A stretch of DNA of 64,000 bases, taken from contig MPMR01000007.1 in NCBI GenBank assembly GCA_002238605.1, positions 92,001 to 156,000 of the forward strand, read 5' to 3'. This DNA comes from BD2-11 clade cluster bacterium bin43 (lineage in GTDB: Bacteria > Gemmatimonadota > Gemmatimonadetes > Longimicrobiales > Gaopeijiaceae). Positions within the stretch are counted from its first letter, which is position 1; each line of letters begins with the position of its first letter. Under the pieces are notes generated by a model. It worked only from the letters and a program-made list of their open reading frames with translations, made no database searches and was not told the DNA's origin. Position numbers and translations under genes: made by a program. Below, one piece after another: positions 56,038 to 64,000 of this stretch.

Positions 56038-58787
56038 CGGTCCGCCAGCGCCGCCAGCTTCTCCTGCAGCTTGTCGTGCTGTTCGCGGAAACTGGCGAGC
56101 TTTTCGCGCTCGCGGGCCACAACCCGCTCGGGAGCGCGCTCGAGAAAGTTCCGGTTGGCCAGCTTGCGCCGGGCCCCGTTCATCTGCCCGCCCAGGCGGG
56201 CTACCTCCTTTCGCAGGCGCTGCCGTTCGCGCTCCAGGTCGATTACCCCCTCGAGCGGAATGAAGACTTCGGCGCCGTTCTGCAGGATCGCATGCGCGCC
56301 CACGCCGCGAGGCCGCCCGTCGAGCATCACCGACTTCACGCGCGCGAGTCGCGTGATCGCCTCTTCCCCGGCGGCCAGCGTTTCCGCGAACCCGGACGGC
56401 ACGGCGGTGAGGACGATCGTCACCCGCCGGCCTTCCCGGACCCCGTATTCCTTGCGCAGGCGACGCACCCCGGTGATGAGTTCCTGCAGAGCCCTCACCT
56501 CCCGTTCCACCGCGGGAGCCTCCCACCGCGGCTGCGCTTCAGGCCACGGGGCCACCATCAGCGCGGGAGCGCGTTCGGCGCCCTCGGGCAATCGCAATCG
56601 TTCCCACAGCGCCTCGGTGACGAAGGGGACGACGGGATGGAGCAGCCTCAGAACGGTGTCGAAGGCGTGGGCCAGCGTGGCCCGGGCCGCCTCCCGGCTG
56701 GCTTCGCCCGCATCGCCGCGAAGGCGAGGCTTGACCATCTCCAGGTACCAGTCGGCGAATTCGCCCCAGAAGAGCTGGCGCAGCCGCTCCGCAGCCTCGT
56801 GCAGCCGGAATGCCGCGAGCGCCTGCGTCACCTCCCGACAGGAGACCGACAATCTCGACAGCATCCAGCGGTCGGCCAGCTCCAGGTCCGCCTCCACATC
56901 TTCGGGACGCGGCGGCGGCTCGTCTCCGAGATTGGCAAGCGTGAAGCGGCCCGCGTTCCAGAGCTTGTTGGCGAAATTGCGTCCGGGGGCGAACGATGCC
57001 TCCAGATCGGTGTGATCAAGCCGGATATCCGCTCCCACCCCGCATTCAGCCACCATCGTATAGCGCAGCGCGTCGGCGCCGAAGCGTCGCACCACTTCGA
57101 GCGGATCGATCCCGTTGCCGCGGGACTTGGACATCTTGTGCCCCGTGATGTCGCGCACGGTGCCGTGCAGATACACCTCGGTGAAGGGCGTCTCGCCCAT
57201 GAACTCGAAGCCGGACATGATCATCCGGGCGACCCAGAAAAAGAGGATCTCCGGGGCTGTGGAGAGCACATGCCCGGGATAGAAGGCGCGGAGATCATCG
57301 GATTCCTCGGGCCAGCCGAACACCGAGAAGGGCCAGAGCCAGGACGAGAACCAGGTGTCCAGCACGTCGGGGTCCTGCTCCAGGTCCCGGGAGCCGCAGG
57401 CCGGGCAGGCATCCGGGTCCTCCAGGGCGGCGAAGACGTTGCCGCACCCGCAGTACCAGACCGGGATGCGGTGCCCCCACCACAGCTGCCGCGAGACGCA
57501 CCAGTCGCGGATGTTCTCCATCCACTTCTCATAGTCGTTGCGGCGTCGCGCGGGGATGAAGTTCACGACGCCGTCGCGCGAGGCCTGGAGCGCGGGTTCC
57601 GCGAGCGGCTTCATGCGCACGAACCACTGCTTGCTCAACCGGGGTTCGACCACCGTGTCGCAGCGATAGCAGCGGGGCACGGTGTGCACGTGCGGCTTCG
57701 AGCCCGCCAACAGCTCCGCCTCCTCCAGGGCCTTCAGCACCGCGCGGCGGCCTTCCCCGCGACTCATCCCGCGGAAGGCCGGAGGAGCGTTCTCGTTCAG
57801 GCGCGCGTCCCGGGTGAGGATGTTGAGCAGCGGAGCTCCTGAGCGGCGCGAGATCTCGAAATCGTTGATATCGTGCGCGGGGGTGACCTTGACCATCCCG
57901 GTGCCGAAGTCGCGATCCACGAAGTCGTCGCCGACGATCGGGATGCGACGCCCGGCCAGCGGGAGCACGGCATGTGCGCCGATCAATGCGGCATATCGTT
58001 CGTCCGCCGGGTTCACGGCTACGGCGGTGTCGCCGAGCATGGTCTCGGGGCGGGTCGTGGAAACCGTCAGGTACCAGGACCCATCGTCCGCGCGGCCCAG
58101 CGAACCGCCCAGCGCCCGGGCTTCGGCGGCGCGTCCCCATGCCGTCTCTTCCAGAGGATAGCGCAGGTCGTAGAGCGTCCCCTCGACCTCGTGCCCCTCG
58201 GCTTCCTCGTTGGAAAGCGCCGTCAGGCAGCGCGGACACCAGTTCACGATGTACTCGCCGCGATAGACCAGGCCCTTTTCGAAGAGGCGCACGAATACGG
58301 TGCGCACGGCCTTGCTCAGCGCCGGCTCCAGTGTGAAGCGGGTGCGCTCCCAGTCGCAGGAACAGCCGATCGCGCGCAGCTGCTCGAGGATCTGGCCGCC
58401 GGTCCTGTCGATCCATTCCCAGGTGCGCGCGAGAAACGCCTCCCGGCCGAGATCGTGGCGGGTCCTGCCCTCCGCGGCGAGCTGGCGCTCGACCACGTTC
58501 TGGGTGGCGATGCCTGCGTGGTCGGTGCCGGGGACCCACAGGGCCGCCCTGCCCTGCATGCGGCGCCACCGCACCAGGACATCCTGGATGGTGTTGTTGA
58601 GCCCATGCCCCATGTGCAGGACCGCGGTCACATTCGGGGGCGGGATGACGACCACGAAGGGCTCGGTACCCTGCTCCCGGGCCCGCTCGGCGGTCATGCG
58701 GAAGTACCCGCCGTCGAGCCAGCGGCGGTAGATGCGAGGCTCGATCGTGCCGGGATCGAGACGGGGCGGCAGGTTCAGGTCGGTCAT
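56034..58787 (-). CDS. valS: Valyl-tRNA synthetase
   Basis: Charges tRNA(Val). 917 residues. The class I motifs are VIPPPNVTAVLHMGHGL (HMGH at 58-61) and KMSKSRGNGIDP (Lys551-Ser555). WVPGTDHAGIATQNVVERQL, NWCPRCLTALSNEEAEG and the editing domain TTRPETMLGDTAVAVNP are present. The C-terminal coiled coil (LERERQRLRKEVARLGGQMN) is complete. ATG at 58787 overlaps the upstream gene's stop (ATGA). Confidence 0.98.
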   Translation of the reverse strand: MTDLNLPPRLDPGTIEPRIYRRWLDGGYFRMTAERAREQGTEPFVVVIPPPNVTAVLHMGHGLNNTIQDVLVRWRRMQGRAALWVPGTDHAGIATQNVVERQLAAEGRTRHDLGREAFLARTWEWIDRTGGQILEQLRAIGCSCDWERTRFTLEPALSKAVRTVFVRLFEKGLVYRGEYIVNWCPRCLTALSNEEAEGHEVEGTLYDLRYPLEETAWGRAAEARALGGSLGRADDGSWYLTVSTTRPETMLGDTAVAVNPADERYAALIGAHAVLPLAGRRIPIVGDDFVDRDFGTGMVKVTPAHDINDFEISRRSGAPLLNILTRDARLNENAPPAFRGMSRGEGRRAVLKALEEAELLAGSKPHVHTVPRCYRCDTVVEPRLSKQWFVRMKPLAEPALQASRDGVVNFIPARRRNDYEKWMENIRDWCVSRQLWWGHRIPVWYCGCGNVFAALEDPDACPACGSRDLEQDPDVLDTWFSSWLWPFSVFGWPEESDDLRAFYPGHVLSTAPEILFFWVARMIMSGFEFMGETPFTEVYLHGTVRDITGHKMSKSRGNGIDPLEVVRRFGADALRYTMVAECGVGADIRLDHTDLEASFAPGRNFANKLWNAGRFTLANLGDEPPPRPEDVEADLELADRWMLSRLSVSCREVTQALAAFRLHEAAERLRQLFWGEFADWYLEMVKPRLRGDAGEASREAARATLAHAFDTVLRLLHPVVPFVTEALWERLRLPEGAERAPALMVAPWPEAQPRWEAPAVEREVRALQELITGVRRLRKEYGVREGRRVTIVLTAVPSGFAETLAAGEEAITRLARVKSVMLDGRPRGVGAHAILQNGAEVFIPLEGVIDLERERQRLRKEVARLGGQMNGARRKLANRNFLERAPERVVAREREKLASFREQHDKLQEKLAALADR

Positions 58788-59590
58788 GTCCCCGGCGGGC
58801 GTCGCACCGAATCCCCGCGCGCAGCCGCGCGCTCCGCGTCCACCCGCTCGCGAATGGCGCGCTGGCGATCCTTCCAGGACTGCTCGACGGCGGCTGCGAT
58901 CGCGCCCCGCTCGAGCTCCATCCATTCCCAGTCGCGTTCACGCAGTTCGTTGATGCGCGACGGGTTGGGACCAAAGTTGAAGGGAAGCGGGAGGGTGATG
59001 TTGCCCAGATGGATCTTGCCTGGCGAGAATCCCCAGCGGCCGCCGTCTCCGTCCGTATAGGTCCAGTCCATCGCGGCGACCCGGGCGGCTTCCGCGGTCG
59101 TGATCGAGTCGATCCAGAGGTCGAGGACCGCGGCCATCTGGAAGCGGGCGCGCTCTTCGAGGGTGAGGTCGAGCAGCGCCGGGTCGATGGGACGCCACAC
59201 CTCGGGGTTGTTCATGAACGGCCGCAATCTCTCGGCGGCAGTCCGCGGGTCGCCGGCCGGGACCTCGACGTCGGCCACGATGACCCCGGGGTTCGCATCC
59301 TCCGGGAGCGCCGGTTCCTCGGGCGCGGGGGCCACCTCCGGCTCGGGATCGGGAGCAGGCTCCGGAGTCGCTTCGTCGAGTTCGAGCAGCTGCACCACCT
59401 GCATGCCGTCCTGGCTGGCCGGCACGAAGACCGGCACGGGTGCGGCCGGGGGGGCCGTCTCGGGTTTCCAGTTCGGGTAGATCAGAATCACGATCACGTG
59501 CGTTGCGACGGAGATGGCTGCCGCGACCCAGCGCACCCACCGGGGCGCCCCGGAGGAGGCGATCGAGCGGGCCGGCGGCGCATCCCTCAT
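58784..59590 (-). CDS. Single-pass membrane protein with TonB-like N-terminus
   Basis: 268 residues. One hydrophobic helix (~residues 18-38, VRWVAAAISVATHVIVILIYP) is followed by a Pro/Glu/Ala-rich periplasmic spacer (EPAPDPEPEVAPAPEEPALPED), the layout of TonB-type energy transducers. After that the protein is not TonB: no C-terminal TonB domain is seen, but helical, Trp- and Arg-rich sequence (ERDWEWMELERGAIAAAVEQSWKDRQRAIRE). Function unknown. It starts on the last base of the preceding stop (TGATG) and overlaps valS. Confidence 0.75.
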   Translation of the reverse strand: MRDAPPARSIASSGAPRWVRWVAAAISVATHVIVILIYPNWKPETAPPAAPVPVFVPASQDGMQVVQLLELDEATPEPAPDPEPEVAPAPEEPALPEDANPGVIVADVEVPAGDPRTAAERLRPFMNNPEVWRPIDPALLDLTLEERARFQMAAVLDLWIDSITTAEAARVAAMDWTYTDGDGGRWGFSPGKIHLGNITLPLPFNFGPNPSRINELRERDWEWMELERGAIAAAVEQSWKDRQRAIRERVDAERAAARGDSVRRPPGT

Positions 59591-60664: not shown

Positions 60665-63259
60665 CTATCCCATCCGACGCGCGATCCCCGGCTCGCCGGA
60701 GGAGGCGTAGAACGCGCGCAGTTGCTCCTCGATGCGGCGCCAGGGCCCCCGGGCGAGCGGCGCCGGCGGCAGCGACTCGAGGAGGTAGCGGCCGTAGCGG
60801 TACTTGACGATTCGCGAATCCAGGAGCACTACGGCTCCGCGGTCCCGGCGCGAGCGCACCAGGCGACCGAAACCCTGGCGCAGGCGAAGCGCCGCCTGGG
60901 GCAGCATCAACTCCTGGAACGGATTCCCTCCGGCCGCCTCGATGGCTTCCATGCGTGCTTCGACGACGGGATCGGTGGGGACGCTGAACGGAAGCTTCTG
61001 GATGAGCAGCGCGCGCAGGGGCCGGCCCGGGACGTCCACGCCCTCCCAGAAGGAGGAAGTGCCCAGCAGAATCGCGTTGCCGGCCTCGACGAAGCGGGAG
61101 AGAAGCCGGGAGCGGTCGTCCTCTCCGTGCACCAGCAGGGGCCAGCGTCCCTCTCCCCCCGCCCGCAGCGCCTCCGCTACCGCGCGCAGGGCCCGGTGGG
61201 AGGTGAAGAGGGCAAAGAGTCCTCCCCGGGAGATGTCGGCGAGTGCCGCAACGGCGCGGGCGGTCGCACGATTGAACGAGGCGCTTCCCGCCGAACCGCC
61301 GAACGAGGGCCGCGGCAGGTCCGACGGGACGCAGAGCAGTGTCTGCGCGGCGAAATCGAAGGGAGATTCGATGCGTGCTTCGGCGACCTTGAGGGCAGGC
61401 GCATCCGCCGGGTCGCGCGCGAGCCCGAGACGTCCGCGCAGGAAGCCGAAGTCCTTGCGCGTGGTCAGCGTCGCCGAGGTAAGCACGGTGGTGCGGACGC
61501 GCTTGAACAACTGTTCTCTGAGCAGTTCGGCCAGCTCGATGGGCGCGGCGGCGAGATGAAGGTTGCGGTGTTTTCCACGCCGGAGATTCCTCTGCTCCAC
61601 CCAGCGGACGTATCGCTGTCCCTCCTCGGCCGGATCCAGGACGAGGCGCAGGCTGCGCGACGCATTGTTCAGGCGGCGCTCGATGCTCCGCAGGTCGAGG
61701 ACTCTTCCCTCGAGCGGTTCGCGCCACTCGTCGGTGAGCTCGATGCGCGCGCCGAGCTCGGACAGCTCGCGCGTCAGCCCCGCGAGTGCGTCCAGAAGCG
61801 CATCGAGGTTCCTGTGAACCCGCTCCTGGTCGATGGGCTCCGGGAGCTGCTCCGAGCCCAGCCTCACGCGAACGCCTCCGGGCAGGGGCGCCATCTCATC
61901 GAGGATGTGGAAGAAGGCTTCGAATCGCGCGCGCGTCTCCTTGAGCGACGGGAGTACCCGGTCGGTGAGGCGGTCCAGAAGCGGTTTGGCGGCCGGACCC
62001 GCCAGAGGGCCCTCCGACCGCGCACCGTCTTCGGCCACCGTGGGAAGGCCGGCGAGCTTGCGCCGCACCACCCCCGCCACACGCTCCAGGCGGGTCAGCG
62101 TGGCGGCCAGTCCCTTCCGGCTGACGCTCGCGCCCAGGTGGCTGGTGGCGGCGTCCTCCACGTTGTGCGCTTCGTCCAGGATCAGCCGGCGGTATGCCGG
62201 CAGCGCCGCGGACTGGGTGAAGTTGTCGGTGACGATGCGCAGGGAGAGGTCGGAGAAGAGAAGATGGTGGTTCACCACCAGCACGTCCGCGGATGCCGCC
62301 ACCCGTCGTGAGCGCTGGTAGAAGCAGGACTGGAAGTGGGGACAGCGGGCGTGCAGGCAGATGTCGGAATCGGACTGCACTTCTTCCCATACCTCCCGGG
62401 ACGGGGCAGTCGCCAGATCGGCAAGCGATCCGTCCTCCGTGGCCGCGATCCAGTCGAGCAGCGCATTGACCTCGCGGGTGCGGTCCTCCCCGAAGAGGGT
62501 GGCCGCGCTCTCCGCCGCCAGATGAGCGCGGCGGATGGAGATGTAGTTCCCCCTGCCCTTCATCAACGCCCAGCGGAAGTCCTCTCCCAGGAGTTCGCGT
62601 ACGAGAGGAAGGTCCTTGGCGACCAATTGTTCCTGCAGGTTGATGGTGTTGGTGGAGACGATCGTGCGTTCCCTGTTGCGGATCGCCCAGCGGGCAGCGG
62701 GCAGGAGATAGGCGACCGACTTTCCGGTGCCGGTGCCGGCTTCCACCAGGGTGACCCCATCCTGGTTGTATCCCCGCGCCACCTCCGCCAGCATCGCACG
62801 CTGCCCCGGACGATCCTCATAGCGCTCGTGCAGACGCGACAGAGCGCCGCCGGGGGCGGCCAGTGCTTCCATCTCGGGTATGTCCAGGGGTTCGAGCGAC
62901 GACGGCGGCGGCGGCTCCACCACCACGTACAGCGCCCTCGCCGGGTTGTCGACGATGGCGCTGCCGAGGCCCTGCTCGTAGAGGCGTCCGGCCACGTGAA
63001 GGTCCGCGTCGGAGGGCTCCAGGAGTCCGGAGGGGTGGTTGTGCAGCATGATCTCGCCGGCGCGCGCGTCGCCGGCGGCGGCGAGCACGGCGGCACGGTT
63101 CCCCCGGGCGACCGTGCGGGGGTCCACGATGACCCGTTCGGGCGTCACGGTGGCGAGGAAGCTGACTTCGCGCCCGCCCGCCCGCGCAATCTGTTCGCGC
63201 ATGCGCCTCGCGGCCTCGGGGGCGAGAACGAGGTCGGGCCGGGGCCGCTCGGGGGTCAC
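60665..63259 (-). CDS. dinG: DinG/XPD-type helicase with N-terminal JAMM/RadC-like domain
   Basis: 864 residues. Residues ~1-115 carry a JAMM-type metal motif: Glu31 (GREVSFLA) and HNHPSGLLEPSDAD (His73, His75, Ser83, Asp86), as in RadC/JAB proteins. The helicase follows: AGTGTGKS (Lys180), DEAH (362-365), LTSATL and QGFGRLVRS (~795). For the Fe-S domain, Cys301, Cys306 and Cys312 have DinG spacing, but the first ligand position (NYLC in E. coli) reads NYIS, Ser241. GTG start at 63259. DinG unwinds damaged or RNA-paired DNA; the role of the extra domain is unknown. Confidence 0.9.
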   Translation of the reverse strand: MTPERPRPDLVLAPEAARRMREQIARAGGREVSFLATVTPERVIVDPRTVARGNRAAVLAAAGDARAGEIMLHNHPSGLLEPSDADLHVAGRLYEQGLGSAIVDNPARALYVVVEPPPPSSLEPLDIPEMEALAAPGGALSRLHERYEDRPGQRAMLAEVARGYNQDGVTLVEAGTGTGKSVAYLLPAARWAIRNRERTIVSTNTINLQEQLVAKDLPLVRELLGEDFRWALMKGRGNYISIRRAHLAAESAATLFGEDRTREVNALLDWIAATEDGSLADLATAPSREVWEEVQSDSDICLHARCPHFQSCFYQRSRRVAASADVLVVNHHLLFSDLSLRIVTDNFTQSAALPAYRRLILDEAHNVEDAATSHLGASVSRKGLAATLTRLERVAGVVRRKLAGLPTVAEDGARSEGPLAGPAAKPLLDRLTDRVLPSLKETRARFEAFFHILDEMAPLPGGVRVRLGSEQLPEPIDQERVHRNLDALLDALAGLTRELSELGARIELTDEWREPLEGRVLDLRSIERRLNNASRSLRLVLDPAEEGQRYVRWVEQRNLRRGKHRNLHLAAAPIELAELLREQLFKRVRTTVLTSATLTTRKDFGFLRGRLGLARDPADAPALKVAEARIESPFDFAAQTLLCVPSDLPRPSFGGSAGSASFNRATARAVAALADISRGGLFALFTSHRALRAVAEALRAGGEGRWPLLVHGEDDRSRLLSRFVEAGNAILLGTSSFWEGVDVPGRPLRALLIQKLPFSVPTDPVVEARMEAIEAAGGNPFQELMLPQAALRLRQGFGRLVRSRRDRGAVVLLDSRIVKYRYGRYLLESLPPAPLARGPWRRIEEQLRAFYASSGEPGIARRMG

Positions 63260-63299: not shown

Positions 63300-64000
63300 T
63301 CAGGTCTTGCGCTGTTGCTTCCGGGCCGCCGGGAAGAGGACGTTGTTCAATATCAGGCGATAACCGCCCGAATTGGCGTGCAGCGAGAGATCCGTCGGCG
63401 GATCGCCGATCTGGTGTTCGGGGTCTTCCGGATCGTGCCCGCCGTAGAAGGTCCAGGTTCCCTCGCCACGGTTTCCGTGGATGTACTTGGCCCATCCGCC
63501 CTCCTGTGCCAGGATGATGGCGCCCGGCTTGACGCGGTCGATGCGGAAGGACGTCGTGAGGCCGTAGAAGTCGGAAAGCACGTCCTCGTGGCTCTGCGTC
63601 AGCATCGAGGGCACGGGATCCAGCTTGGCGGAGAACTCGAAGAGCGAGAACGCCCCCAGCTCTTCCCGCCAGGGGGTGTTGACCTGGTGACCGTCGATGT
63701 CGCTGAAGGCGTTGACCGACGGCGAGAGCTGCACTTCGGCGTTCATGAACCCCAGCGCCCGGTCCCATTCCATGTGCGCCGAGGCGTCGAGGGCCGGTGG
63801 GGTCCCGTCGGCGAACGCCGCCGCGATGTCGGCCTCCCGGGCCGCCAGGGCCAGGCCGAGCGTCTCGGTCGCCGAGCACATGGCGAAGAGGAAACCGCCT
63901 CCCTCGACGAACTCCAGAATCGTGCTCGCCACCGCCTTCTTGAGCGCGGGCACGTGCGGATACCCGAACGCGGTGGCCACCTCCTGGTTGCGGGCCACTT
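63300..64000 (-). CDS. Conserved exported-type protein, C-terminal part (family often labelled 'asparagine synthetase B')
   Basis: C-terminal ~233 residues; the start lies beyond the right edge. The text EFVEGGGFLFAMCSATETLGLALAAREADI, PPALDASAHMEWDRALGFMNAEVQLSP, and HANSGGYRLILNNVLFPAARK resembles a ~400-residue family of Gemmatimonadota and Bacteroidota that databases often call asparagine synthetase B without a clear basis; no glutaminase or synthetase motif is visible here. It ends 40 bases before dinG. I give the label only as a database habit, recalled and not checked. Confidence 0.6.
   Translation of the reverse strand, partial: VARNQEVATAFGYPHVPALKKAVASTILEFVEGGGFLFAMCSATETLGLALAAREADIAAAFADGTPPALDASAHMEWDRALGFMNAEVQLSPSVNAFSDIDGHQVNTPWREELGAFSLFEFSAKLDPVPSMLTQSHEDVLSDFYGLTTSFRIDRVKPGAIILAQEGGWAKYIHGNRGEGTWTFYGGHDPEDPEHQIGDPPTDLSLHANSGGYRLILNNVLFPAARKQQRKT

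Follow-up and report, generated by a model that had tools for sequence, protein, structure and literature searches.

A single polypeptide encoded within the 64,000-nucleotide stretch of Gemmatimonadota DNA analyzed here (the window) carries an N-terminal RadC-like JAB domain and a DinG-family helicase. The fusion of a RadC-type JAMM domain ahead of a YoaA/DinG-type helicase is real, and the protein is almost certainly a Gemmatimonadota RadC-like DinG, that is, a YoaA-type XPD-family helicase with a compact JAMM domain added to it. The class is old and widespread, and the window's gene is a further member of a described architecture. The Aravind group had noted RadC–DinG/RAD3 fusions (PMC5512222, with reference to Iyer et al. 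2011), and a recent classification divides DinG into ten subgroups, among them 'RadC-like DinG', with a representative from Desulfuromonas soudanensis in which Zn2+ was modelled (PMC11981726; Cheng 2025, section 3.8). The novelty implied by the original prediction, which was made from the DNA alone, did not survive these earlier descriptions, and a novel architecture is ruled out.

The subgroup has nevertheless been little explored: the same paper states that no research exists on it, and our literature search found no reported biochemical activity for RadC or RadC-like DinG. Gemmatimonadota are absent from the main text of PMC11981726. What is added here is a survey of lineages, a variant Fe–S site in which serine replaces the first cysteine, and a series of natural losses; no description was found in the literature of the fixed serine, of the domain and metal-site losses, or of the two RadC elements missing from the fused domain that are detailed below.

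Gene and domain layout

The open reading frame proposed at 60665–63259 is present, on the minus strand, and numbering from its GTG start places Glu31, His73, His75, Ser83, and Asp86 exactly as had been claimed. The features are as follows.

60665..63259, minus: RadC-like DinG gene; open reading frame 63259 to 60665, 864 aa, GTG start
62906..63238, minus: RadC-type JAMM/JAB domain, residues 8–118; PF04002 above cut-off, AlphaFold pLDDT 95
63167..63169, minus: E31, general-base glutamate of the JAMM motif; Glu in 153/155 relatives
63002..63043, minus: H73-N-H75-P...S83..D86 metal-site motif, from sequence and conservation
62717..62743, minus: Walker A motif EAGTGTGKS, residues 173–181
62537..62539, minus: Ser241 at the position of the first Fe–S cluster cysteine; fixed in the window's order
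62324..62359, minus: the other three Fe–S cysteines, C301, C306, and C312; invariant in 52 aligned class members
62165..62176, minus: DEAH box, residues 362–365
60764..61243, minus: Helicase_C_2 domain, residues 673–832; PF13307, E 1.7e-44

In Pfam searches the RadC model PF04002 (curated cut-off 22.1 bits) scored 28.3 bits with the isolated N-terminus and 24.3 bits with the whole protein, and the domain is followed C-terminally by DEAD, DEAD_2, and Helicase_C_2. The description of the remainder as a standard DinG helicase needs a small correction, as the closest curated model is that of YoaA (NCBIfam NF053712) and the first Fe–S cysteine is a serine. YoaA, the XPD-family repair helicase of Escherichia coli that partners with HolC, has no JAMM domain, and the window's protein falls under the cut-off of the YoaA model (555.6 vs 680 bits). 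Neither a match to HolC (DNA polymerase III chi, PF04364) nor a second Helicase_C_2 protein was found in the window's genome. The absence of HolC is shared with the published RadC-like DinGs, as are the YoaA-like helicase and the N-terminal RadC-like JAMM domain with its E, H, H, and D residues (here E31, H73, H75, and D86, plus the JAMM Ser83).

Predicted fold and metal site

The JAMM fold expected for residues 1–120 was recovered when residues 1–130 were modelled with AlphaFold2 on an alignment of 101 sequences (pLDDT 95). In the model E31 lies where strand 32–38 starts, H73 and H75 where strand 70–75 ends, and S83 and D86 where helix 84–95 starts, so that the predicted placement of the five residues on strands and helix is the canonical JAMM layout. 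The best PDB match by E-value in a Foldseek search was RadC (2qlc), with CsRpn11, CSN5, and PfJAMM1 close after, while TM-scores were 0.5–0.58 for the JAMM proteases and about 0.46 for RadC. As these TM-scores are moderate, the JAMM assignment rests on fold and sequence together. The sequence profile was significant for 2qlc alone (E 3.1e-9; AfJAMM, E about 0.1), and profile alignment (hhalign) with RadC proteins, including the host's own, gave 98.5% and E 2.9e-15. The full-length model (pTM 0.91) was closest to the DinG structure 6fwr.

Sequence comparisons place the domain more narrowly. Deubiquitinase-type JAMM/MPN+ domains carry the motif E...H-S/T-H-P...S..D, and the window's domain has their metal residues but HNHP in place of HS/THP, a form that points to the RadC branch. 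Canonical RadC (PF04002; 2qlc), which belongs to the same JAMM branch with the motif HNHPSG...PS..D, has no helicase and possesses a segment of about eight residues of HPRE type before the HxH strand and an LDHxI strand, both of which the fused domain lacks. The host encodes a separate canonical RadC. RadC is a very common bacterial protein, for which we know of no activity.

The metal site is strongly conserved. When 52 sequences of the window's class were aligned, E31, H73, H75, S83, and D86 were retained in 51, and the remaining one (G018) has lost the JAMM domain. Among 31 class members that had not been selected on the motif, all five residues fall within the 22 invariant columns out of 111, for which simple counting gives a chance of about 2e-4, and the match to the metal motif is therefore more than coincidental. 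The residues are also nearly invariant across about ten phyla, although for H73, H75, S83, and D86, which were fixed by the pattern used in the search, this is partly so by construction; E31 lies outside that DNA pattern and is Glu in 153 of 155 cross-phylum sequences.

Distribution, origin, and natural variants

The window's protein is matched in 37 of 39 near relatives and in 247 of 297 genomes of the phylum, most matches being full-length. RadC-family matches occur in 59 of 61 sampled genomes of the phylum, and the usual set comprises a canonical RadC and a fused one. A degenerate DNA pattern (HNHP-S/T-G-x-L-x-P-S..D...A/S), designed so as to leave out canonical RadC and GC-rich codons, returned at least 115 loci in a scan of 84,980 prokaryote species, each represented by one unannotated genome. 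Among the 115 matches listed, 105 are of the fused type (four of these with only the N-terminal part inside the fetched stretch) and come from many phyla, which rules out a fusion peculiar to Gemmatimonadota, and in the other 10 the RadC-like protein carries no helicase. By record title, the matches listed include Fusobacteria, Spirochaetes (Treponema, Brachyspira), Desulfuromonadota (Geobacter, Desulfuromonas), Halanaerobium, Dadabacteria, Hydrogenedentota, KSB1, Calditrichaeota, Sumerlaeaceae, Riflebacteria, and Dependentiae, and in these the motif lies 77–89 residues, mostly 83, from Walker A.

When the helicase part was placed in a tree together with outgroups, all JAMM-DinGs fell in one clade of 126 leaves (support 0.967), sister to YoaA (support 1.0), with the Gemmatimonadota as one group (support 1.0). 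This clade spans Gemmatimonadota, Desulfuromonadota, Spirochaetota, Fusobacteriota, Halanaerobiales, and others; the window's protein thus shares it with Desulfuromonadota fusions, the D. soudanensis sequence itself not being among the leaves. A single clade beside YoaA fits one fusion event, and the JAMM domain was apparently gained once, on a YoaA-like helicase lineage. Vertical descent and old transfers are indistinguishable on this tree because the deep branches among phyla are weakly supported. A mobile or phage origin was rejected, as no plasmid or phage record covered at least 80 per cent of the query. One replicon filed as a plasmid, the 2.1 Mb NZ_CP084075.1 of Fusobacterium vincentii, gave a near-full match and is evidently a chromosome.

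Several lineages at separate positions in the tree have since lost the metal site or the whole domain. The DinG of F. vincentii keeps the aligned region but has lost the metal residues, with IRTTKPKQLYPSDME replacing LHNHPSGLLEPSDAD, while that of F. mortiferum has an intact motif. In genus g33, a gemmatimonadotal group with genomes of 2 Mb, two loci (L179 and L188) retain a JAMM-like stretch lacking the metal motif that matches the JAMM profile at E 5e-18 and 7e-9, and in genera g9, g29, g49, g57, and g60 no JAMM domain was detectable beside the helicase. The helicase therefore persists without the domain in several genera, where the domain is dispensable. Lineages with remnants or full loss are a minority, and where the domain is retained its metal site is usually whole.

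A second variant concerns the helicase. Ser241 replaces the first of the four cluster cysteines (SCCC), whereas PMC11981726 describes the ligand residues of its RadC-like DinG subgroup as fully conserved. Of the 72 leaves of another tree, the 41 in the window's clade (G018 being counted twice) are all SCCC and the remainder all CCCC, a pattern that a single change explains, at a node with support 1.0. The codons at this position are TCN in 35 of 38 sequences and AGC in the other 3, a usage that suggests that the serine is being held. Under the rule of PMC11981726, by which four or three cysteines make an FeS domain able to hold a [4Fe-4S] cluster, SCCC, with three Cys plus Ser, would count as a putative FeS domain; that paper notes the replacement of one cysteine by H, S, or D, with CCCS as an example, and the SCCC variant is not in its text. 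Titles of metagenome-bin records may be wrong, and one contig filed as Vicinamibacteraceae (Acidobacteria; L113) that encodes a JAMM-DinG of the window's type, serine included, is probably mis-binned.

Across phyla, the fetched loci show no obvious recurrent partner gene, although counts of neighbour-gene clusters in them are inflated by the shadow open reading frames of GC-rich genomes, and neighbourhood was dropped as a clue to function. Two other genes may be recorded. A co-directional gene 40 nt upstream of dinG (window 63300–63998 and beyond; L178:301–1584, minus) encodes a product of 427 aa with an apparent signal peptide and no Pfam match, and in domain-less relatives, G018 and G131 among them, dinG likewise follows the end of this gene, as judged by eye. 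At 58784–59590 (minus), adjoining valS, is a 268 aa protein with no Pfam match, whose one N-terminal membrane helix and proline/acid-rich stretch are, by eye, reminiscent of TonB-like proteins.

Possible activities of the fused protein

Judged from its relatives, the motor should move 5'–3' on single-stranded DNA with ATP, and the JAMM site may hold one Zn2+ and activate a water molecule. The motor could then feed nucleic acid past the JAMM site, which would hydrolyse a bond in it, and the protein would serve repair or fork rescue as a helicase-coupled nuclease or nucleic-acid-processing enzyme. Nucleic acid is favoured over protein as the JAMM substrate because the domain is RadC-type and sits in the slot where other DinGs carry nucleases, a reading that we put at slightly short of an even chance. 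ExoDinG (the Staphylococcus aureus and Bacillus subtilis type) and EndoDinG (Bdellovibrio) also have a metal-dependent enzyme in this N-terminal slot, although theirs are of DnaQ-type or PD-(D/E)XK nuclease fold and belong to other helicase subgroups (PMC11981726). A RadC-type domain in the DinG nuclease slot has itself been argued to act on nucleic acid (PMC5512222). The dispensability of the domain in several genera weighs against such a role, as do the structural comparisons: the TM-scores are higher to JAMM proteases than to RadC, and a DALI search with RadC-like DinG gave metalloproteases, not nucleases (PMC11981726).

That DALI result agrees instead with a helicase-coupled metalloprotease that would cut protein encountered by the helicase as it translocates, for example a stalled complex or DNA–protein crosslink. 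The solved and characterized JAMM+ enzymes listed by Foldseek are all (iso)peptidases, and active JAMM proteases have the same full E/H/H/S/D set. The RadC-type HNHP in place of HS/THP, profiles significant for RadC only, and the Aravind group's argument that the RadC branch is without the ubiquitin-tail groove (PMC5512222) make this reading, the main rival, the less probable one. It is rather unlikely that the domain is non-catalytic, a structural or DNA-guiding module, perhaps zinc-stabilized, that performs no hydrolysis. Metal-less remnants do persist in F. vincentii and g33, and the near-constant spacing to the motor is as for a docked module, but few positions are invariant across phyla and the metal residues, with E31, belong to them, which is beyond the needs of a scaffold, and lineages with remnants or full loss are few. 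A chance motif match or gene-calling artefact, in whose favour the Pfam score exceeds its cut-off by only a few bits, is refuted by RadC matches in 101 of 101 members of the cross-phylum alignment, the confident JAMM-fold model, and an in-frame fusion conserved across many phyla.

The fullest proposal, a helicase-coupled JAMM enzyme of new catalytic type whose RadC-type site would hydrolyse either nucleic acid or a DNA–protein bond and would in the window's order work with a serine-ligated Fe–S cluster, is offered as a doubtful but possible one. If this proposal is true, the domain would be a JAMM-fold nuclease and the third independently acquired cutting module of DinG helicases. The helicase partner fixes where a RadC-type domain works and may provide a handle on the function of RadC, with the metal-less (F. 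vincentii, g33) and domain-less (g9, g29, g49, g57, g60) versions forming a ready comparative set. The fixed cysteine-to-serine change throughout a bacterial order would likewise offer a natural experiment on serine ligation for helicases of the XPD family.
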